36,731 nucleotides of DNA. Source: Bacteroidia bacterium (GTDB lineage: Bacteria; Bacteroidota; Bacteroidia; Flavobacteriales; Flavobacteriaceae). Below the pieces are notes generated by a model. The model saw nothing but the letters and a program-made list of their open reading frames with translations. It was not told the DNA's origin and ran no database searches. Of this stretch, positions 27,168 through 36,731 are shown one piece after another (the first letter of the stretch is position 1; every line of letters begins with the position of its first letter). A program made the position numbers and the translations under genes. Location: positions 1-36,731 of the forward strand of contig JAUIFC010000017.1 in assembly GCA_030429455.1 (NCBI GenBank). The letters run 5' to 3'.

Positions 27168-27310
27168 TGTAATAAAGTTTTAATATGGTAATTATCGACA
27201 ATATATGTACGTAGGCAATTTTCTAGTGTTACGCCCGATTTCACTTTTATCCAACATTTTCAACAAATATTAATATTTCGTTAGTCTCTAATTGTTTTGA
27301 AAATAATATT

Positions 27311-27318
27311 TAAATTTG
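27311..27318 (+). promoter_or_regulatory. -7 box of the his operon
   Basis: TAAATTTG matches TAnnTTTG. The predicted start of transcription (about 27323-27325) coincides with the leader peptide ATG at 27323, so the leader peptide may be translated from a leaderless RNA. A TTTG at 27296-27299 is too close to be an ideal -33 element. Confidence 0.6.
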
Positions 27319-27322
27319 TGTC

Positions 27323-27373
27323 ATGATTTATATTTGGTTACATCATAGTAAAGTAAAACCTGTCAAACGGTAA
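27323..27373 (+). CDS. his operon leader peptide (16 aa)
   Basis: The small frame encodes MIYIWLHHSKVKPVKR and ends with TAA at 27371-27373. Two consecutive histidine codons (CAT CAT, 27341-27346) sit 24 nt before the stop codon. The frame ends directly after the CAAACGG segment that can form the antiterminator. Ribosome stalling at the His codons would leave that segment free, whereas completion of the peptide would cover it. This arrangement is what identifies a 16-codon frame as a real regulatory peptide. Confidence 0.8.
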   Translation: MIYIWLHHSKVKPVKR

Positions 27374-27430
27374 TAAATGAACTATTGACGTCATAACATC
27401 CCGTTTGGTTTCAAGCGGGATTTTTATTTT
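27364..27430 (+). promoter_or_regulatory. his attenuator: antiterminator pairing and intrinsic terminator
   Basis: A terminator stem is formed by ATCCCGTTTG (27398-27407) and CAAGCGGGAT (27412-27421), with a GTTT loop and one T-G wobble, followed by a T-rich tail (27421-27430). The upstream segment CAAACGG (27364-27370), at the end of the leader peptide frame, is exactly complementary to CCGTTTG (27401-27407) in the 5' arm. The two pairings are mutually exclusive. A second inverted repeat, GTCAA (27362-27366) with TTGAC (27385-27389), could also compete. This is a transcription attenuator controlling hisGDCBH by histidyl-tRNA supply. Confidence 0.85.
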
Positions 27431-27453
27431 AAATGAAATTTTAAAAACCTTAA

Positions 27454-28311
27454 ATGAAAAATTTAAAAATTGGCATTCAAAAATCTGGACGATTAAATGA
27501 AGATTCTATAAAACTTTTAAAAACATGTGGCATTTCTGTCAAAAATGGAAAAGACCAACTGAAAGTTACAGCCTCTAATTTTCCATTGGAAATCTATTAT
27601 TTAAGAAACGGAGATTTGCCACAATATTTAAAAGATGGTGTAGTCGATTGCGCCATAATTGGCGACAACCTTTTGGTCGAAAAAGGAGAAAACATTAAAT
27701 CGAATATGCCATTAGGATTTTCAAAATGTCGAGTTTCGCTCGCTATACCAAATAGAGCAACTTATAACTCAATAAGAGATCTTCAAGGCAAAAAAATAGC
27801 GACTTCTTACCCAAATACTGTCAATAAATTTTTAAAGAAAAATGACATTTCAGCAGAAATTCATATCATTAATGGTTCTGTAGAAATCGCTCCAAATATT
27901 GGTCTCGCCGATGCCATTTGCGACATCGTTTCCTCGGGAAGCACCCTTTTTAAAAACAACCTTAAAGAAGTTGAAGTCATTCTAAAAAGCCAAGCCGTAT
28001 TGGCAGTTTCACCAAAAATTGAAGCCGAACAGCAACAAATCTTAGACAAACTGAGCTTTAGAATCGAATCTGTATTAAAAGCCAAAACCTCCAAATACAT
28101 CCTAATGAATGTTCCAAATGAAAAAGTGGAACATGTGGTTCAACTTTTGCCTGGCATGAAGAGTCCAACCATTATGCCGCTAAGTGACGAAGGTTGGTCT
28201 TCTGTGCATACCGTAATCGACGAAAATGATTTTTGGGAAGTGATAGACCAGCTGAAAGATGCTGGAGCCGAAGGAATTTTAGTGGCACCAATTGAAAAAA
28301 TGATATTGTAA
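27454..28311 (+). CDS. hisG: ATP phosphoribosyltransferase HisG (long form)
   Basis: The 285-residue enzyme catalyses the first committed step of histidine synthesis, joining ATP and PRPP. Family features are IGIQKSGRLNEDS at the start, the DCAIIGDNLL segment, and the phosphate-binding loop IVSSGSTL (near 158). The length and the C-terminal ACT-like domain (about 212-285, YILMNVPNEKVEHVV to GAEGILVAPIEKMIL) mark the long form, which is feedback-inhibited by histidine and does not need HisZ. It lies 23 bp after the attenuator terminator. Its stop and the hisD start share one base (TAATG). Confidence 0.95.
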   Translation: MKNLKIGIQKSGRLNEDSIKLLKTCGISVKNGKDQLKVTASNFPLEIYYLRNGDLPQYLKDGVVDCAIIGDNLLVEKGENIKSNMPLGFSKCRVSLAIPNRATYNSIRDLQGKKIATSYPNTVNKFLKKNDISAEIHIINGSVEIAPNIGLADAICDIVSSGSTLFKNNLKEVEVILKSQAVLAVSPKIEAEQQQILDKLSFRIESVLKAKTSKYILMNVPNEKVEHVVQLLPGMKSPTIMPLSDEGWSSVHTVIDENDFWEVIDQLKDAGAEGILVAPIEKMIL

Positions 28312-29606
28312 TGAAAATTATTCAACAGCCTGACGAAAAAAATTGGGAAGAATTATTAAAAAGACCAACACAAGACTTTGCGAGTTTAGAATCTGATGTT
28401 AAAGCCATTTTTGAAGACATCAAACATAATGGTGATTCTGCAATAAAAAAATACACTCAAATTTTCGATGGTATTTCAATTGAAGATTTTAGTGTAAATC
28501 CTGAAGCGATAGAACATTCAACCGATAACATTTCAGCGGCATTAAAAGAGGCTATTGATGTTGCCTACGACAACATTTTTAAATTTCACCTTGCTCAAGA
28601 ACAAGTTACAATAAAGGTTGAAACTCTGCCAGGTGTGAAGTGTTGGCAAGCCACCAAGCCCATCGAAAAAGTAGGCTTATACATTCCAGGTGGAAGTGCT
28701 CCATTGTTTTCAAGCATTTTGATGTTGGGAATTCCAGCAAAAATAGCAGGTTGTAGAGAAGTTGTTCTCGTCACGCCACCACAACAAACTGGCGTTGTTC
28801 ATCCTGCGATGCTGTATGCAGCCAAAAAATGTGACATAAAAAGCATCTATCAAGTTGGTGGTATTCAAGCCATTGGCGGATTGACTTTTGGCACAGAACG
28901 TATTCCGAAAGTCTATAAAATATTTGGCCCTGGCAATCAGTATGTCACGGTTGCAAAACAAGTCGCCACCACATACGATGTTGCCATCGATATGCCAGCA
29001 GGTCCTTCTGAATTATTAGTCTTAGCAGACGATAGCGCAAACCCCACGTATGTGGCCGCAGATCTTTTGAGCCAAGCTGAACATGGCGCTGACAGTCAGG
29101 TGATTTTGGTCACAACATCCAACGATTTGGCCGAAAAAACAAAAGATGAAATCTATGCACAATTAGAGCTTTTACCTCGAAAAGACATTGCCGTCAAAGC
29201 CATTGAGAACTCCAAACTTATCGTTGTTCAAAATATCAAAACCGCTTTGAGGCTTACTAATCAATACAGTCCTGAACACCTCATCATTTGTTTGAATGCT
29301 GAAGACGAAGCGATAGACCAAATTTACAATGCTGGCTCTGTATTTATTGGAAATTATACACCAGAAAGCGCTGGCGATTATGCCTCTGGCACCAATCATA
29401 CCTTACCAACAAATGCTTTTGCAAGGCAATACAGTGGGGTGAATTTGGATGCCTTTACCAAAAAAATGACTTATCAAAAAATAAGTAAAGAAGGTTTACT
29501 GCATCTTGGAAGACACATCGAAGTAATGGCTGAAGCCGAAGAACTTCAAGCGCACAAAAATGCTGTAAGTTTAAGACTAAAGGATTTAAATACGCCTGAC
29601 TCATGA
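28311..29606 (+). CDS. hisD: Histidinol dehydrogenase HisD
   Basis: The 431-residue enzyme carries out the last two NAD-dependent oxidations from histidinol to histidine. Diagnostic segments are GLYIPGGSAPLFSSILMLGIPA, GPGNQYVTVAKQ, the PAGPSELLVLAD loop, and SQAEHGADSQ with zinc ligands Q255 and H258. YASGTNHTLPT lies near the C-terminus. The length is normal. It is translationally coupled to hisG by a one-base overlap. An 85-bp gap to hisC contains TACTTTAG (29673-29680), one base off the -7 consensus, so a secondary promoter for hisCBH is possible but weakly supported. Confidence 0.95.
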   Translation: MKIIQQPDEKNWEELLKRPTQDFASLESDVKAIFEDIKHNGDSAIKKYTQIFDGISIEDFSVNPEAIEHSTDNISAALKEAIDVAYDNIFKFHLAQEQVTIKVETLPGVKCWQATKPIEKVGLYIPGGSAPLFSSILMLGIPAKIAGCREVVLVTPPQQTGVVHPAMLYAAKKCDIKSIYQVGGIQAIGGLTFGTERIPKVYKIFGPGNQYVTVAKQVATTYDVAIDMPAGPSELLVLADDSANPTYVAADLLSQAEHGADSQVILVTTSNDLAEKTKDEIYAQLELLPRKDIAVKAIENSKLIVVQNIKTALRLTNQYSPEHLIICLNAEDEAIDQIYNAGSVFIGNYTPESAGDYASGTNHTLPTNAFARQYSGVNLDAFTKKMTYQKISKEGLLHLGRHIEVMAEAEELQAHKNAVSLRLKDLNTPDS

Positions 29607-29691
29607 TTTGTGATTTCTGGTTAAAAATTGTTTTCTTTTTTGAAACAGAAGTATAGAAATTTTCATCTGTAGTACTTTAGCACCATTATTT

Positions 29692-30735
29692 ATGAACAAA
29701 CGAATAGACATAGCCTCTTTAATTAGACCTGAACTTTTGGACATCAAGGCCTATTCTTCTGCTAGAGATGAATTTTCGACTGAAGAAGAAATGATTTTTT
29801 TGGATGCCAATGAAAATCCTTTCAATACAAAACTTAATCGATATCCAGATCCGTATCAATCCAAATTGAAATCAAGAATCTCTGAACTGAAAAACGTTGA
29901 TTCCAAAAACATTGTTTTAGGCAATGGCAGTGATGAAATCATTGATTTATTGATACGCTTATTTTGCGTGCCTTATACCGACAAAATCATGACTTTTCCA
30001 CCAACTTACGGCATGTACAAAGTCACCGCAGATTTGAATGCTATTGGGATTCAAGAAGTTTTGCTTGATGAAAATTTTCAGCTAAAAGTTGATGAAATTC
30101 TGGAACGCATCACAAAAGAAACTAAACTAATTTTCTTTTGTTCGCCAAACAATCCTTCGGGAAATACTTTATACAGAGAAGATGTTATTCGCATACTCCA
30201 TCAATTTGATGGCATCGTTGTTATCGATGAAGCTTATAGCGATTTTTCTACCGAATCTTCGTTTTCAGAATTAGTAGAAGACTACAACAACTTGGTGGTC
30301 ATGCAAACTTTCTCTAAAGCCTATGGCTTGGCCGGAGCAAGACTTGGCATGTGTTTTACAAATCCTTTTATAGTGGATTACCTTAACAAAATTAAACCGC
30401 CTTACAACGTCAACAGTTTGAGTCAAAACATTGCGCTTGAAAAACTTTCATCCATAGAAAAGGTTGAAAGTCAAATCAAATCAATTATTTCTGAACGCAT
30501 AAAATTAGAAGGCGATTTAAAGCACATCGATTGGATAACACACATTTATCCAAGTCAGGCAAATTTTTTATTAGTAAAAGTAGATGACGCCAACAAGAGG
30601 TACAAACAATTTTTAGACCACCGCATTGTTGTAAGAAACAGAACAACTCAACCCAATTGTGAAAACTGTTTGCGCTTTACGATAGGTACACCAGAAGAAA
30701 ATTCGACTTTTCTTGAAACCATAAAAACATTTTAA
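29692..30735 (+). CDS. hisC: Histidinol-phosphate aminotransferase HisC
   Basis: The 347-residue fold type I PLP enzyme makes histidinol phosphate from imidazole acetol phosphate and glutamate. Motifs include LDANENPFN near the start, GNGSDEIIDLLIR, CSPNNPSGN, VVIDEAYSDFS, and the PLP-binding Lys209 in TFSKAYGLAGARLG. The C-terminal arginine for phosphate binding lies in CLRFTIGTPEEN. It is followed after 3 bp by hisB, so the two genes are coupled. Confidence 0.95.
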   Translation: MNKRIDIASLIRPELLDIKAYSSARDEFSTEEEMIFLDANENPFNTKLNRYPDPYQSKLKSRISELKNVDSKNIVLGNGSDEIIDLLIRLFCVPYTDKIMTFPPTYGMYKVTADLNAIGIQEVLLDENFQLKVDEILERITKETKLIFFCSPNNPSGNTLYREDVIRILHQFDGIVVIDEAYSDFSTESSFSELVEDYNNLVVMQTFSKAYGLAGARLGMCFTNPFIVDYLNKIKPPYNVNSLSQNIALEKLSSIEKVESQIKSIISERIKLEGDLKHIDWITHIYPSQANFLLVKVDDANKRYKQFLDHRIVVRNRTTQPNCENCLRFTIGTPEENSTFLETIKTF

Positions 30736-30738
30736 GAC

Positions 30739-31872
30739 GTGAAAAAACTACTGCTTATAGACAGAGACGGCACCTTGATCCGAGAACCCGAAGACGAACA
30801 AATAGATAGTTTTGAAAAACTCGATTTTTACCCAGAAGTATTTAAGTATTTAGGCAAAATTGCAGAAAAAGGTGATTTTGAGCTTATCATGATTACCAAT
30901 CAGGATGGACTAGGCACCGATGCTTTTCCTGAAGACACCTTTTGGCCAGTTCAAAATTTTATAGTCAAAACCTTTGAAAATGAAGGCATAGTCTTTAAAG
31001 ATATTTTAATCGACCGAACATTTCCTCATGAGAATGCCGAAACAAGAAAACCTAAAACTGGTCTCGTAAAACCTTACCTTTCTGGTGATTATGATATCGA
31101 AAATTCATTGGTTATTGGCGATCGTTTAACGGATATTGAGTTGGCCAAAAACATGGGATGCAAAGGTATTTTTATAAATCAACATCGAGGATTAGGCGAT
31201 AGCGAACTGGAATCAAGCCAAAGCGAATTGAACGCATACATTCAACTTGAGACTCAGTCTTGGAAGGAGATTCATGATTTTTTGGTTTTAAGCAATAGAC
31301 AAATCTCACATTCTCGACATACCAAAGAAACACAAATCGACATTAATTTAAATCTTGATGGTTCGGGCAAATTTAGAGCTAAAACAGGCTTAGCTTTTTT
31401 TGATCATATGTTGGAACAAATTGCCAGACATGCCCTTGTGGATTTGGATATTCACGTCAATGGCGACCTCGACGTGGACGAACACCATACGATTGAAGAT
31501 ACAGCGATTGCTCTTGGAGAAGCCTTCAAAAAAGCAATAGGCAATAAGTTAGGAATGGAACGCTACGGGTTTTATTTACCAATGGACGATGCTCTCGCCA
31601 AAGTTGCCATCGATTTTGGAGGAAGAGCATGGTTAGTTTGGGATGCCAAATTTAAAAGAGAATACGTCGGCGATATGCCCACAGAAATGTTCATGCATTT
31701 CTTTAAATCGTTTTCCGATGCTGCGCATGCCAACCTGAACATAAAGGCAAAAGGCAAAAACGAACACCATAAAATCGAAAGTATTTTTAAAGGTTTTGCA
31801 AGAGCAATAAAAGCAGCTGTAAAAAGAGACCCTGATAAGGTTATTCTTCCAAGCACAAAAGGAACATTATGA
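30739..31872 (+). CDS. hisB: Bifunctional histidinol-phosphatase / imidazoleglycerol-phosphate dehydratase HisB
   Basis: The 377-residue fusion starts with GTG. The N-terminal HAD phosphatase domain (about 1-165) has the nucleophile motif LIDRDGTLI and [16 protein letters not shown]. The C-terminal dehydratase domain (about 185-377) has [12 protein letters not shown], the manganese-binding [16 protein letters not shown] and a second [12 protein letters not shown] motif. It therefore catalyses two separated steps of the pathway. The stop overlaps the hisH start (ATGA at 31869). Confidence 0.95.
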
Positions 31873-32453
31873 GCAAATTGGTGATTATTGATTATGGCGC
31901 TGGAAATATACAAAGCATCCAATTTGCCTTAGATCGATTAGGCTATCAATCTGTTTTGAGCCGAAATCCAACAGAAATAGAAAATGCTGAAAGAGTCATT
32001 TTTCCTGGCGTTGGTCATGCAGAAACCGCAATGCAAAAGTTGAAGGAAACAGGCCTTGAACAGTTGATTCCAAATCTGAAACAGCCTGTTCTAGGGATTT
32101 GCTTAGGCATGCAATTAATGTGCAATTATTCCGAGGAAGGACAAACTGAAGGCTTAGGAATTTTTGATGTGGATGTCAAACATTTTGACATTAAAGAAAA
32201 AGTACCTCATATGGGTTGGAATGTGATATCCCAATTAAAATCCAAACTGTTTCAAAACATTCCTGAACGCGCTTATATGTATTTTGTACATAGCTACTTT
32301 GTCCCAGAAAATCCTGAAAGCATCGCCACAACTGATTACTCGATTTCATTTTGCAGTGCTTTGGCTAAAAACAACTTCTATGGAGTTCAGTTTCACCCTG
32401 AAAAAAGCGGAGAATTTGGCGAGAAAATACTAGATAATTTTCTTAATCTGTAA
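31869..32453 (+). CDS. hisH: Imidazole glycerol phosphate synthase glutaminase subunit HisH
   Basis: The 194-residue class I glutamine amidotransferase has the triad Cys78 ([10 protein letters not shown]), His176 and Glu178 (QFHPEKSG). It supplies ammonia to HisF, with which it forms the IGP synthase complex. HisF is not encoded nearby. The gene ends the his operon here, where hisA, hisF and hisIE would usually follow in Flavobacteriaceae. Its last 11 bp overlap the 3' end of the convergent VOC gene. Confidence 0.95.
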
Positions 32454-32865
32454 CATTTCCACTTTCATCCAAGTTGAGAAATGGATTGTAGGCGATTTCC
32501 CATAAATTACCTTCAATATCGCAGACATAGCCACTATAACCACCCCAAAACGCATTTTGTGGCGGTTTAATAATTTGTACTCCTTTTTGCTTTAAATCTT
32601 CAAACAATTCATTGACCTCTTGAATAGAATTTACATTAAACGCCATTGCAAATCCATTAAATCCACTTCCTTCAGAAGAGACTTCCGCATCGAGAGCAAG
32701 GTCTTCTTTTGGATAAAGTGAGAGAAGGATGCCATTTAGCTTAAAAAAGGAAATTTGTTCATTACTCGAGCTTAAGGTTTTCCAACCAAAAGCTGTTTCG
32801 TAGAACGTGGTCATGGCTTTTAAATCCTCGACACCGATGGTTATAATTGTAAGTCTCTGATCCAT
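32443..32865 (-). CDS. VOC (glyoxalase/bleomycin-resistance) superfamily protein
   Basis: The 140-residue protein is a single VOC domain with two beta-alpha-beta-beta-beta modules. Features are TIGVEDLKAMTTFYETAFGWK at the start, MAFNVNSIQEVNELFEDLKQKG, and FWGGYSGYVCDIEGNLWEIAYNP near the end, where Glu of LWEIAYNP is the usual metal-ligand position. The substrate is unknown. It is convergent with hisH, overlapping it by 11 bp, and lies 7 bp downstream of the DUF1905 gene on the same strand, so they are probably cotranscribed. Confidence 0.85.
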   Translation of the reverse strand: MDQRLTIITIGVEDLKAMTTFYETAFGWKTLSSSNEQISFFKLNGILLSLYPKEDLALDAEVSSEGSGFNGFAMAFNVNSIQEVNELFEDLKQKGVQIIKPPQNAFWGGYSGYVCDIEGNLWEIAYNPFLNLDESGNVTD

Positions 32866-32872
32866 ATACTTA

Positions 32873-33166
32873 TTATATCGAAAGTTTAATCGTTACCTCA
32901 TCTCCAATGCTTAAGGCTCTTTTTTTTCGAATGCTAGCTTTAAGCGGCAAAAGATAAGTATTACGTTTGGTATCGAACCAAATGGCTGTTTGCCAAATTA
33001 TGTCATCTAGCTGAGCTGTTACCTTCAACCTACCCCAACCTTCTTCAAATTCTTTGAGGTGCTCACGAATATCAGCTGAAATATCTGTTGGTAAAGACAC
33101 AAAATGCCAACCACCGTCCGCATTGTGTTTCCATATCACCGATTTAAAACTGTAGTTTATGTTCAC
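32873..33166 (-). CDS. DUF1905 domain protein
   Basis: The 97-residue protein is a compact DUF1905 domain. Signs are SFKSVIWKHNADGGWHFVSLPTD (a W..GGW.FV.LP pattern), GWGRLKVTAQL, TYLLPLKASIRKKRAL and IGDEVTIKL at the end. The small double-psi barrel-like fold has no firmly established function. It appears to be cotranscribed with the VOC gene downstream. Confidence 0.8.
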   Translation of the reverse strand: MNINYSFKSVIWKHNADGGWHFVSLPTDISADIREHLKEFEEGWGRLKVTAQLDDIIWQTAIWFDTKRNTYLLPLKASIRKKRALSIGDEVTIKLSI

Positions 33167-33258
33167 AAGGATATCTTTTAACCTATAAAACTCTGCAAGA
33201 ATTCAGGCTGATATTTTAGGTAATGATACTAAAAATCCATAAAAACCAAAAAAGCTTT

Positions 33259-33294
33259 GAGAAAAAAAGCATGATTTTATTTGCTTTTTAGCTC
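33259..33294 (-). terminator. Probable terminator of the lipoprotein gene at 33311
   Basis: On the - strand GAGCTAAAAAGCA pairs with TGCTTTTTTTCTC (11 of 13 positions), and the 3' arm is itself a T-run. It is 16 bp beyond the stop of the gene at 33311. Confidence 0.6.
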
Positions 33295-33310
33295 AGTCCA
33301 TTTTTAGTTG

Positions 33311-33904
33311 CTATTTTTTATATTTCTTTTCAATACGTCCATTATCTAAAACTCGATACTCGACTTTTCCTGCTGTCATTTTCAGGCTTCCTTTGATAAT
33401 GTCTGTTTCATCTTGATTAAAGTCCCAACGTTTTACCGTGTCAAGGACGGTGATTGTTCGATCAGTGTTAAAAGTCACATGTTCTATTGCTTCATATCCC
33501 ATATCTTGACCGCTCTTGTCATAAAAACCTGTAGAGTCAATTTTATTTCCTTTTAGGTCATAAGTAGTCAAAAAGGGTACAAGTCCCCAATCTCCTATTC
33601 CACAGTCAATAATTCCAATTGTATTGCCATCCCGATAATAGATTCCTAAGGGTTGGCTCGTCCAAGTGTGCTTATATTTTCCGAAAGTATTTTTGTCAAA
33701 GTTTTTTGAAGTCTCAGGAAGTTGTCCAAATGGATTAGTTTCCAAGGGAAGAGGAATTTGGTCGAGTGTGGAAATGTAATTTTCAAAGTTTGAGTACGAT
33801 TGTTCACTTCCTTTTACTATTTCAGTTGAATGTTCCTTTTTTGTCGGACTATTACAACTCCACAAAGTGATGAATAAAATCATGGATATGATTAGTTGTT
33901 GCAT
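33311..33904 (-). CDS. Lipoprotein of unknown function
   Basis: From the ATG at 33904 the protein has 197 residues, with a lipoprotein signal MQQLIISMILFITLWSC (Cys17). The mature part is hydrophilic and beta-rich (for example WTSQPLGIYYRDGNTIGIID and TITVLDTVKRWDFNQDE) with no recognised family. An in-frame ATG at 33964 would add 20 residues (MKLPLVSSITK...), but they are encoded by a decayed group II intron end and precede the true signal peptide, so the later start is chosen. No partner gene is evident. Confidence 0.7.
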   Translation of the reverse strand: MQQLIISMILFITLWSCNSPTKKEHSTEIVKGSEQSYSNFENYISTLDQIPLPLETNPFGQLPETSKNFDKNTFGKYKHTWTSQPLGIYYRDGNTIGIIDCGIGDWGLVPFLTTYDLKGNKIDSTGFYDKSGQDMGYEAIEHVTFNTDRTITVLDTVKRWDFNQDETDIIKGSLKMTAGKVEYRVLDNGRIEKKYKK

Positions 33905-33938
33905 TGTCGTTGTCTTGCTTGCAGGTAATATTTTTGTA

Positions 33939-34042
33939 ATAGAACTGACTAAGGGAAGTTTCACCCTAAACCTCTTTTAGAACCCTGCTTGAAAGTCTCC
34001 CATCACACGATGGCTCTAACTGCTCAAATCTAAGCAATTACA
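33939..34042 (-). mobile_element. Decayed 3' end of a group II intron (domains V and VI)
   Basis: Read on the - strand, this stretch aligns along its length with the intron end at 36620-36731. The shared parts are TGTAAT-GCTTAGATTTG before domain V, a domain V-like hairpin (GAGCC at 34016-34012, TGGGAGAC, GGTTC at 33984-33980), and a domain VI-like arm (GAGGTTTAGGGTGAAAC then TTCCCTTAGTC). Domain V is 37 nt instead of 34 and its stem has several mismatches, so it is probably inactive. No reverse transcriptase frame is present upstream, where the IS begins at 34187. Confidence 0.7.
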
Positions 34043-34203
34043 ATGATTTGGAAAAAGTTCCAGTGGTAAAACGTTGTAGACTATTGTTTCCGTCGAAAAG
34101 AGGATATAGGCTGTCCAGATGTATATCGGGAAAAACTTGGTTGTTGGCAGTAGCAATTTTACGCTAGTGCTAGATTGTCATTAATTAGGGTCTGCTGAAA
34201 AAC

Positions 34204-35715
34204 TCAGCCGACCCTTAAATTCTGTCTAAATCTATTAGATATATCTAAATTAGAGAAAGACTCAAAACCTTTTATATACTCGTAAATAAGATGCATCAAT
34301 TTTCTCCATAGCAGTGCTACCTCCGCCAAATGGACGAGGTTAAGCACTAATACTATGCATGCCACCCAAGATTCACTTGTTTTTGCAAGCCTTGCTTTTA
34401 TACGGTCTAATCCATATGCTGTTTTAGCTTGTCCAAACTTACCTTCAATTGGGTTTCTTTCTCCAGGTCTTACATGATTTGACAATGCCTTTTTCTTAGG
34501 TGGTCTCCCTAAAGGTTTTGCCCTGAGTATTATCCCTTTTTTCTTCAAATAGGCTCTGTTCTCCCTATTGCAGTAGATTTTATCTGCCATAACTTCCTTT
34601 GGATAATAGCCTGATCGTTTTTTATATTTTTCAACACTATCCTTTAATCTTGTTCCCTCGTTGAAAGCATCCCAACTAAAATCGTCTAAAAAAGTTAGGC
34701 CACTGACCAAGGAAGCATTAATCTTTGCGCCAAATTCTACCTTTGAATTAGATTTACCTCTAACAATTGGTCTGACATGGGGCTGGTGAATACTTACAAT
34801 TCTATCTGCGATACTTTTAGTTTTGGTGTCATACATTGTTTTTTGTTGCACATAAAGTTGTTGTATGACTAGTAGATATTTGTACTGCGTTTTGTTCAAA
34901 GGAATTACTTTCAAAGTATCCAATATTTTATCAATTGAGCGCAAATTTCTACCCAAATAGCCTAGCTGTTGTCTTAATGCTGTGCGAATATTTTTTCTTG
35001 TTTTAGTTTTCTTTTGAGCCACTTTTAGATAGTCTTTTCTTGCTTTCTGACGATAATTGCGTGGCTTTTTTTTCAAAGTAGATTTGGCATAAAGAACATC
35101 TAACAGCTCTTCTGATTTTTCCCGGGCATCATTAAGCAAATCAATATCAGTAGGGTATGCAATATCCTGAGGACAAGCTGTTGCATCGATTATTAGCGAT
35201 CCTTTATGGGTAACCTCTTGTGTGTCTTGGTTCTCATCATCATTGTCTTTAGACTTGTCTTTCTTTTTGTCTTCAAGATCTTGCTTTATCTTGGCTATTC
35301 GCTCATTAATGGCCTTTATTTCTGTTAAACCTAATCGTTTTCTAAACTCGACAAATAATGAAGCATCAAAAGGGGGAACATCACAAAAAGAAGTGTAACC
35401 TAAAAAGTATTGCATGTAGATGTTTTCGCTGATTTGGTCTACAGTCTCTCGGTCATCTAAATTACACAAATGTTTGATTATAATGGATCCTAAAACAATC
35501 CTTGGATTTAATGCTGGACGACCTGTTGATTTTTCTGGTAGATGCTTCCAGTAAATGGAACATAACTCATCCCAAGGTAATAGCTTAGATAATTGAACCC
35601 AGCGGTTATTAGGATTCAATTCTCTTTCAAATGGACTTTCAAAACCAGATATGGTAAGTTGATTTGTACTCACATATTTGGGTGAAGGTGCACGACTTTT
35701 TAATGCGTTTTTCAT
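34204..35715 (-). CDS. IS1182 family DDE transposase
   Basis: From the ATG at 35715 the protein has 503 residues. An in-frame ATG at 35769 would add 18 residues but lies upstream of the element's own -7 box (TATATTTG, 35745-35738). The N-terminal region has the DUF772-type segment STGRPALNPRIVLGSIIIK. The catalytic triad is suggested by Asp in LIIDATACPQDI, Asp in VMADKIYCN and Glu in NPIEGKFGQAKTAYGLDRIKA. A charged Lys- and Asp-rich linker (KDKSKDNDDENQDT) lies between. The C-terminal stop overlaps the left terminal repeat. The frame is complete, so the enzyme may be functional and could also move the element at 18066-18358. Confidence 0.9.
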   Translation of the reverse strand: MKNALKSRAPSPKYVSTNQLTISGFESPFERELNPNNRWVQLSKLLPWDELCSIYWKHLPEKSTGRPALNPRIVLGSIIIKHLCNLDDRETVDQISENIYMQYFLGYTSFCDVPPFDASLFVEFRKRLGLTEIKAINERIAKIKQDLEDKKKDKSKDNDDENQDTQEVTHKGSLIIDATACPQDIAYPTDIDLLNDAREKSEELLDVLYAKSTLKKKPRNYRQKARKDYLKVAQKKTKTRKNIRTALRQQLGYLGRNLRSIDKILDTLKVIPLNKTQYKYLLVIQQLYVQQKTMYDTKTKSIADRIVSIHQPHVRPIVRGKSNSKVEFGAKINASLVSGLTFLDDFSWDAFNEGTRLKDSVEKYKKRSGYYPKEVMADKIYCNRENRAYLKKKGIILRAKPLGRPPKKKALSNHVRPGERNPIEGKFGQAKTAYGLDRIKARLAKTSESWVACIVLVLNLVHLAEVALLWRKLMHLIYEYIKGFESFSNLDISNRFRQNLRVG

Positions 35716-35737
35716 GGTTTCCTTGCACTTGATGACA

Positions 35738-35745
35738 CAAATATA
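35738..35745 (-). promoter_or_regulatory. Transposase promoter -7 box within the IS
   Basis: TATATTTG on the - strand matches TAnnTTTG, with a TTG 21 bp upstream (35769-35767). It would drive the transposase from ATG 35715. Confidence 0.6.
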
Positions 35746-35906
35746 AGCCGTATACCTTATAAATAACAACTTTGTAGTTTTTCAGCAGACCCTAATTAGT
35801 TCAGTTTTGCTCTTCCAATTATTATCGCTAAAATGCTTTATAAGTTTAAATATACCAAATCGTCCCACATTACATATGTACTATTGCTTTGGGTAATTCT
35901 CACATT

Positions 35907-36290
35907 CTATATACTCTCTTTTTCAAATTTGTCGATTAATGTGAGATCAATGAGAAGTCCAAATAGAACTCCTGTGGCATACATAGCTATATCCAAAATA
36001 TCATAAGTACTACCAAGAAATCTTATTTCATAAAATTGTAACATTTCAACAGTCAACCCAAATAAAAATGTAAACACGCCTCCGAGAATCCTACTGTTAT
36101 TTATCGATAATTTCTTACGAAATGATATTTGCAATAACAAATAAAGATTCATAGGAAGTAATATGTCCATTAAGTAACCTGAGACGAAATTTGGAAAAAT
36201 GCCATTATAATTAGGCCCTATAAGAAAATGTAACAATCCTACAAATACAGAAATCCCTACGATAACATATTTACTTTTAGTATTTTTCAT
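35907..36290 (-). CDS. VanZ-like small membrane protein
   Basis: The 127-residue protein has four hydrophobic segments (about 8-24, 38-54, 70-84 and 101-117). The pattern VEMLQFYEIRFLGSTYDILDIAMYATG resembles the E.xQ...R..D..D...N..G core of VanZ-like proteins, though with Tyr-Ala in place of the usual Asn. No function is established. It lies between the IS and a gene fragment. Confidence 0.55.
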   Translation of the reverse strand: MKNTKSKYVIVGISVFVGLLHFLIGPNYNGIFPNFVSGYLMDILLPMNLYLLLQISFRKKLSINNSRILGGVFTFLFGLTVEMLQFYEIRFLGSTYDILDIAMYATGVLFGLLIDLTLIDKFEKESI

Positions 36291-36390
36291 TTCAATCTTT
36301 AATTAAAGGGTAATACCATTTATAACTTGAAATTATCGTAATAAATCGCCCTTATTTACTTTTTTGCTCAGTTTTTTATTCTAAAACACC

Positions 36391-36579
36391 TTATTCCTTT
36401 TTCAAGTTAAGTTCATGTCCAAATCCGCCGTCCAGATTTCGGTAAGCATAAACTGCATGAAAAACACCCTTTTTATCTCCATTTGCAAAATGAAATTCAA
36501 ACAAACGCCTTTCTATCATTCTTGCATTTGTCAATATAAAGTCTCTTGCTTTTAGAAAGTCATTTTTTTGTAAGACCAT
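36391..36579 (-). pseudogene. 5' fragment of a squalene-cyclase/prenyltransferase-repeat-like protein
   Basis: The 62-residue frame contains MIERRLFEFHFANG, GVFHAVYAYRNLDGGFGHEL. This matches the N-terminal part of proteins of several hundred residues whose prenyltransferase-like alpha-alpha repeats begin with the same A-Y-R-N-x-D-G-G-F-G-H motif. The frame then stops, and no continuation is seen in the next 90 bp before the VanZ-like gene. The remainder has probably been lost by deletion. The start lies 40 bp downstream of the group II intron 3' end. Confidence 0.6.
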
Positions 36580-36619
36580 TTTTTAAGGATTATTTGAATT
36601 AGAAACAACGGTCCTCGGC

Positions 36620-36731
36620 ATCGAGTAGACAAGGGGAATTTCGCCCCAAGTCTCTCACAGAACCGTACGTGATAGTCTCCCATCATACGGCTCTTCTTAT
36701 ACAAATCTAAGCTATTACATTTATTTGTGAA
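36620..36731 (-). mobile_element. 3' end of a group II intron (domains V and VI), continuing beyond the window
   Basis: On the - strand, positions 36693-36660 form a canonical 34-nt domain V: GAGCCGTATGATGG, a GGGAGAC apical part, and CACGTACGGTTC. This includes the catalytic AGC triad. Domain VI (36654-36625) follows with GAGACTTGGGG pairing to CCCCTTGTCTAC. The intron should end in CTCGAT at 36620, consistent with the AY 3'-end rule, with the 3' exon on the left starting at 36619. The 5' part and any reverse transcriptase gene lie outside the window. Confidence 0.85.

Follow-up and report, generated by a model that had tools for sequence, protein, structure and literature searches.

Tandem His codons in a leader peptide and an antiterminator opposed to a terminator are the classical features of his attenuation. 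Some attenuators in Bacteroidetes/Chlorobi were reportedly predicted by Vitreschak et al. in 2004. Bacteroidota is a phylum without Shine-Dalgarno sequences.

Among described systems, the proteobacterial His_leader (Rfam RF00514) has a tandem-His leader peptide before hisG and alternative antiterminator and terminator structures, according to the available parts of PMC9413887, a paper on his regulation in Firmicutes that mentions the proteobacterial attenuators. The candidate his attenuators of Firmicutes given in the same parts were predicted comparatively and also consist of a His-rich leader with a terminator and an antiterminator; they belong to other lineages, and the string 'Bacteroid-' is absent from the main text of that paper as available. 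PMC8305728 reviews the his genes of Bacteroidota, and the word 'leader' is absent from its main text as available. Leader-peptide attenuation in operons of F. psychrophilum is reported in the available parts of Guerin et al. (PMC9723704), and Bacteroid-trp (RF01692) is a leader-peptide RNA in the same bacterial family. In other phyla, the available portions of two papers describe leaders that begin, or are treated as beginning, at their start codon: the attenuator RNA of S. meliloti trpL (rnTrpL) begins at the leader AUG (PMC7298713), and the leaderless leader peptide of C. glutamicum ilvBNC is treated as starting at AUG (PMC11857589). In the literature covered, which was mostly outside subscription journals and seen through partial listings, we found no flavobacterial his leader and no leaderless leader peptide in the phylum.

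The window, by which we mean the whole 36,731-nt stretch of DNA analysed here, carries hisGDCBH, very probably preceded by a ribosome-mediated transcription attenuator. Unlike the proteobacterial His_leader, the leaders found here have two to six His codons and an antiterminator strand in the last leader codons, and the RF00514 model matched neither the window nor any of five scanned his loci. Bacteroid-trp differs in its Trp codons; it matched three of five scanned trp loci and neither the window nor the five his loci. The S. meliloti and C. glutamicum leaders serve other amino acids, and the ATG start is stated for S. meliloti, whereas we infer it for the flavobacterium. Because published work already covers leader-peptide attenuation in flavobacteria, a trp leader in Bacteroidetes and leaderless leaders in other bacteria, the his leader joins a known class. 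As judged from sequence comparison, it is a genuine his attenuator whose mechanism is ordinary for the family and whose uncommon feature is its predicted start at AUG. For Bacteroidota it offers a conserved example of coupled transcription and translation that can be tested, one that the Rfam search passed over. If the RNA does start at AUG, it would show how a ribosome can be loaded in time for attenuation when there is no leader.

The his leader of the window

Re-reading of the sequence confirmed the coordinates given in the preliminary description for the 16-codon leader, its tandem CAT codons, the terminator and the complementary segments CAAACGG (27364-27370) and CCGTTTG (27401-27407, within the terminator 5' arm). 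These and the other features of the locus are collected in Table 1.

Table 1. Features of the his leader and operon in the window
Feature	Position	Strand	Basis or remark
-7 promoter box TAAATTTG	27311-27318	+	exact match to consensus TAnnTTTG
Predicted transcription start, A of leader ATG	27323	+	placed by its position 4 nt 3' of the box
Leader ORF MIYIWLHHSKVKPVKR, 16 codons, stop TAA at 27371-27373	27323-27373	+	sequence; His-rich counterparts in relatives
Tandem regulatory His codons CAT CAT	27341-27346	+	sequence; HH in 157/160 leaders
Candidate region 1, AUAGU, pairing with ACUAU 27381-27385	27345-27349	+	by eye; weak in window
Region 2, antiterminator 5' strand UCAAACGG, final leader codons	27363-27370	+	pairs with 27401-27408 in antiterminator-state fold
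Nested hairpin P2, AUGA 27377-27380 / UCAU 27391-27394	27377-27394	+	fold; weak in window
Intrinsic terminator; 5' arm = region 3 (27401-27408), 3' arm = region 4	27398-27430	+	
hisG, first structural gene	27454-28311	+	TIGR00070 (E 3.3e-54), TIGR03455
hisD, hisC, hisB, hisH, rest of operon in window	28311-32453	+	NCBIfam equivalogs

A single terminator-like site lies in the 80 nt that separate the stop codon of the leader from hisG, with a stem (27398-27421) of 10 pairs, five of them G-C, a loop of 4 and a T-rich tail. It was the one such site that the terminator scan found in 1001 nt, and because shuffles expect 0.5 (sd 0.8), the scan by itself is weak proof. The antiterminator helix has 8 pairs, counting a flanking U-G. 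The leader RNA as a whole was modestly more stable than its shuffles (z -1.63, equalled by 17 of 200). At gathering thresholds, the sole Rfam match in the whole window was a group II intron and no leader RNA was found; up to E 10, every match to positions 27200-27480 lay far below its cut-off, the best of leader type being Trp_leader (E 0.78).

We propose that RNA polymerase would start on the leader AUG or beside it and that a ribosome would translate the 16-codon leader. With charged His-tRNA, the ribosome would reach the stop codon and cover region 2, the terminator 3:4 would form, and transcription would stop after ~105 nt. With His-tRNA scarce, the ribosome would stall on the His codons, which in the window lie 19-22 nt before region 2, and would leave that strand free to pair with region 3, so that the terminator would be blocked and hisG transcribed. 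Given the size of a ribosome footprint, a ribosome stalled there should leave region 2 free and one at the stop codon would cover it, and the spacing fits this geometry as the preliminary description had drawn it. In relatives, a predicted 1:2 hairpin should hold region 2 when no ribosome is present. The three alternative states so predicted are those of a classical attenuator.

In the window leader a Trp codon (27335-27337) stands ahead of the first His codon; here and in the leaders of loci L003-L005 and L011, Trp precedes the first His by one to three residues, and it is absent there from the other tabulated genus leaders. Shortage of Trp might also trigger the switch.

Related his loci

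Of 60 relatives, 40 had a HisG match, as did 335 of 397 genomes of the family and 21 of 27 of the genus, which we take to be probably Psychroflexus for the window and its close relatives. A first set of 130 upstream regions came from the best loci (at most 30) per search plus 80 named contigs. The 29 regions of the second set comprised 20 family members, mostly the lowest among the matches listed, and nine full-length matches, two from the same family and seven from the same order. With L016, which was parsed by hand, the total was 160 regions, drawn from Flavobacteriaceae and neighbouring families. Six loci were left out for having identical upstream strings, and certain genomes are present twice through two collections (e.g., L008 and L104). 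The 159 leaders besides L016 represent 135 distinct ORFs, and a terminator between leader and hisG was parsed in all 159 of these loci except L264.

Promoter geometry and the start of the leader RNA

The -7 box of the window ends 4 nt before the ATG, and the same distance was found in the nearest relatives L003, L004 and L005 (L003 with GTG). Because this matches the spacing published for flavobacteria, the RNA is expected to start at the leader AUG. Of 434 candidate -7 boxes in F. johnsoniae, the 241 that lie 4 or 5 nt upstream of the start were regarded as probable promoters, with the consensus TAHHTTTG (PMC6847099); the available parts of PMC9723704 place the box of F. psychrophilum at -12 to -5. 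All 20 tabulated loci of the genus have a box-to-start spacing of 4-7 nt (4 nt in four loci, 5 in one, 6 in two and 7 in 13), and the twenty-first, L016, has 7 nt. Over all 160 loci, a strict box stood 2-30 nt upstream in 78 (within 9 nt in 54), a weak box was found in 55 and none in 27; a strict box at 2-9 nt occurred in 1.2% of 3200 randomised upstream regions. In other family members the ATG follows the box at a distance of 17-35 nt; a near-leaderless start is thus a trait of the lineage and no requirement.

The his leaders of L003 and L117 begin with GTG, in both cases at exactly 4 nt from the -7 box, so GTG may be in use as a leaderless start.

Similar spacing was seen at the trp operon of the same genus. 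A WWW leader was present at all 24 fetched trpE loci that strongly match the family, and in 20 of them the strict box ends 4 or 5 nt short of the ATG; the trp leader of the window's own genome, MKRIFNNTWWWTCDN, has a spacing of 5 nt. The family-wide trp sample had a WWW or WW leader in 30 of 30 loci and a strict box at 4-5 nt in five.

Could the same attenuator have an ordinary 5' UTR, with transcription from another promoter further upstream? The promoter and start of the window come from reading the sequence, and most published flavobacterial 5' UTRs are well above zero: 87% of predicted F. johnsoniae transcripts have a 5' UTR of >10 nt (PMC6847099), and leaderless mRNAs make up 5.5% in F. 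psychrophilum in the available parts of PMC9723704. In B. thetaiotaomicron, ~3.7% of 5' UTRs are <10 nt (PMC7366714, available parts). The family members with the box 17-35 nt away and the loci in which no box was recognised point the same way. However, the exact box at 4 nt in the window and its three nearest relatives, the narrow range across the genus, the rarity of such boxes in randomised upstream regions and the parallel spacing at the genus trp leaders all speak against a longer 5' UTR, which we regard as unlikely. From the promoter geometry, transcription seems to start at the leader AUG.

It is about evenly balanced whether the his and trp operons of the genus share one design, in which the first codon would lie at the 5' end of the attenuator RNA or within about 3 nt of it and the ribosome would load onto the nascent RNA without a ribosome-binding leader; such loading would be how ribosome and polymerase are coupled for attenuation. 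Read by eye, the end of the ORF and the stop codon (GTCGTGA) of most genus trp leaders (L139-L162) are complementary to the terminator loop and 3' arm (TCACGAC), unlike the his pairing, which involves the 5' arm. For other operons, a crude test of nine ilvD starts, two of them mis-set, recognised no leader-plus-terminator pattern; ten thrA stretches consisted of six inside the gene, one directly after another gene and three without a start. The genome to which the window belongs (4.1 Mb in 310 contigs, 86% complete) gave no match to either the ilvD or the thrA family.

Antiterminator and terminator helices

The duplex of region 2 and region 3 in the window (UCAAACGG/CCGUUUGG) has an energy of -10.3 kcal/mol, reached by two of 200 shuffles. 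Over 100 distinct region 2/3 pairs, which include the mis-parsed terminator of at least L063, the mean was -13.3 versus -6.6 kcal/mol in shuffles, and for 89 of them at most 10 of 200 shuffles were as good; the apex of L088 was mis-set in a later parse. When segments were folded in the antiterminator state, 103 of 107 held the 2:3 helix together with the nested hairpin; seven loci (L019, L029, L043, L045, L046, L051 and L061) were left out of these folds for want of a region-3 motif.

Covariation was counted in alignment A1, which holds 92 of the 159 loci and leaves out near-identical spacers and 21 loci of other layout, among which are the lineages that diverge most. MAFFT displaced some genus rows, the window's among them, which lowers the covariation counts for the 2:3 and nested helices. 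In these 92 sequences the 2:3 helix was paired in 91.6% of cells, with both-sided changes in two of 11 pairs and one pair invariant; pairing is kept within the family through A-U/G-U/G-C exchange. Both-sided changes are few there because the terminator arm CCCGUUUGA hardly varies. The terminator helix itself was paired in 99.5% of cells, with both-sided changes in three of nine pairs.

Between lineages both strands diverge and still match. Three other families have CACCACGGC/GCUGUGGUG (L267), GCGGUAGGC/GCUUACCGC (L270) and GCGACCGGA/UCUGGUCGC (L268), and the distant family member L263 has UUCAGGCG/CGUCUGAG. In seven divergent lineages, two of the family and five of other families, hand-picked from 15 rows, pairing with the own partner gave -16.0 kcal/mol versus -9.6 with swapped partners. 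When all 15 rows of the swap table are counted, the own partner came first in four rows and second or third in six; it was fifth in one row and between sixth and tenth in the remaining four. The low ranks belong to L002 (6th), L027 (8th, its region 2 falling outside the stretch used) and L019 and L271 (both 10th). GC-rich arms bind any partner in this table, and L019 has no convincing one. RNAalifold, run on all 114 segments, gave no consensus structure. By these comparisons, the predicted antiterminator is exclusive with the terminator and kept by covariation, with the strongest support between lineages and thin support within the family. The compensatory changes looked for in the CAAACGG/CCGTTTG pairing are thus present, as A-U/G-U/G-C exchanges in the family and as divergent, matching strands elsewhere.

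The Salinimicrobium-type leaders (L007, L041, L052, L060, L069 and L079) have two U-U mismatches in the antiterminator. Their region 2 is self-complementary (TTCGC-TCTT-GCGAG), as if it formed a small hairpin of its own.

A predicted 1:2 hairpin and the nested hairpin

In relatives, three successive codons, the first of them for His, form the 5' strand of the 1:2 hairpin (P1), and its 3' strand spans the stop codon. P1 was assessed in alignment A2, which comprises 93 distinct segments of one layout; duplicates and the 35 leaders with another layout were left out of it. Pairing was found in 77.5% of cells versus 38.6-58.8% in slid registers. There were 61 both-sided cell changes versus 27 in shuffles (0/500), and the tally of pairs changed on both sides was not unusual (199/500 shuffles). 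The clearest sign of P1 is a match between the second base of the stop codon and its partner, the combinations being T-A in 35 segments, C-G in 29, T-G in 6 and C-A in 8 (Fisher 1.4e-8 on these 78 pairs, uncorrected for relatedness; in the other 15 of the 93 the partner is A or G). At the partner site, leaders with a TAA or TAG stop tend towards TAC or TAT, and TGA goes with CAT. The identity of a stop codon that covaries with an upstream codon is an example of RNA structure moulding a peptide sequence. We had also considered a leader without a 1:2 hairpin and dropped it, since this covariation supports one in relatives.

The candidate P1 of the window, read by eye, is weak; it has 5 bp in another register than that of the family and is the counterpart of the 8-bp CAUAACUA/UAGUUGUG in L003. 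The nested hairpin P2 showed both-sided changes in seven of seven pairs in relatives, with 69.4% of cells paired; in the window it is weak, with 4 bp. Region 2 was paired upstream by at least 5 pairs in 66 of 135 leaders; a higher tally of 130 of 135 was discarded, having taken in pairing within region 2. Taken alone, the leader ORFs barely exceeded their shuffles in stability (mean z -0.5; 3 of 135 below -2), and the stretch from the stop codon to region 3 was mildly stable alone (mean z -1.3; 32 of 107 at no more than 5 of 100 shuffles).

Another reading, compatible with attenuation, is that the attenuated RNA of ~105 nt or its peptide acts elsewhere in trans, like rnTrpL/peTrpL. The layout is the same as in S. 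meliloti, where the trpL RNA has its first nucleotides in the ATG of a leader of 14 aa, according to the available parts of PMC7298713. Nothing noticed in these comparisons points to a target, however, and the conservation of the peptide C-terminus is accounted for by the RNA pairing, so we think a trans-acting product very improbable.

Conservation of the His-rich leader

A His-rich leader ORF of 14-26 aa preceded hisG in all 160 parsed regions; because the parser itself sought His-rich ORFs, randomised regions served as the control. The 160 leaders held two His codons in seven cases, three in 55, four in 40 and five or six in 58, so that each had at least two, in line with the conservation proposed from the window. 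HH was found in 157, H-F-H in L003 and L004, and H-T-H in L258. At least three His in four codons were found in 121 of 130 regions versus 0.46% of 1300 randomised regions and six of 1454 overlapping tiles of the window. The looser pattern, in which an ATG ORF 7-30 aa long has two or more His within four codons, occurred in 6.4% of 1300 Markov-randomised 400-nt regions and in 116 of the tiles. A His-His pair alone is weak evidence for this reason; the His-His leader of the window is secure because it is conserved in relatives. That the window has a plain intergenic terminator and a chance short ORF with no translational regulation, as these background rates might allow, is scarcely credible, given that every region keeps the His codons, the length of the leader and its place ahead of hisG, and that region 2/region 3 pairing is kept across lineages.

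The leaders of the nearest relatives are IIQWQHFHNYFRAVKR (L003, with GTG), MKKQWLHFHNFLNAVKR (L004) and MKKTWTLHHSVFTLKR (L005), to be compared with MIYIWLHHSKVKPVKR; the two-His state is therefore a feature of the clade of the window. The preliminary description's remark on just two His codons holds for the window and is amended here, in that the low number is, as far as the sequences indicate, a reduction in this clade from the three to five found mostly in relatives.

A phylum-wide sample, which had no randomised control, contained clusters of at least three His in 16 of 16 family loci (two of whose leaders duplicate earlier ones), 15 of 15 loci of other families of the class, the one order locus (G053, counted earlier) and nine of 14 loci in the rest of the phylum. 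By eye, several class and phylum loci of this sample were without a T-tailed terminator, and some of their His clusters may be due to chance. Judging from all these sequences, a his leader attenuator is the usual state in the Flavobacteriaceae sampled, and similar leaders occur in other families. Attenuation of the proteobacterial kind, which the earlier reading had proposed for this flavobacterium, thus stands, and the notion of an isolated import does not.

In four loci of more distant families of the class (L302, L305, L308 and L310), a His-rich ORF precedes hisG with no evident T-tailed terminator 3' of it. These ORFs could reflect either chance or a different type of control.

The his operon and its surroundings

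The genes of the window run in the order hisG-hisD-hisC-hisB-hisH on the plus strand, and none of hisA, hisF or hisI was identified within the window. The his operon may be split at the region past hisH.

Within positions 31869-36731 of the window, a gene on the opposite strand follows hisH. Beyond hisH lie an IS5-family transposase (34204-35769, minus strand) and the group II intron match (36620-36695, minus strand).
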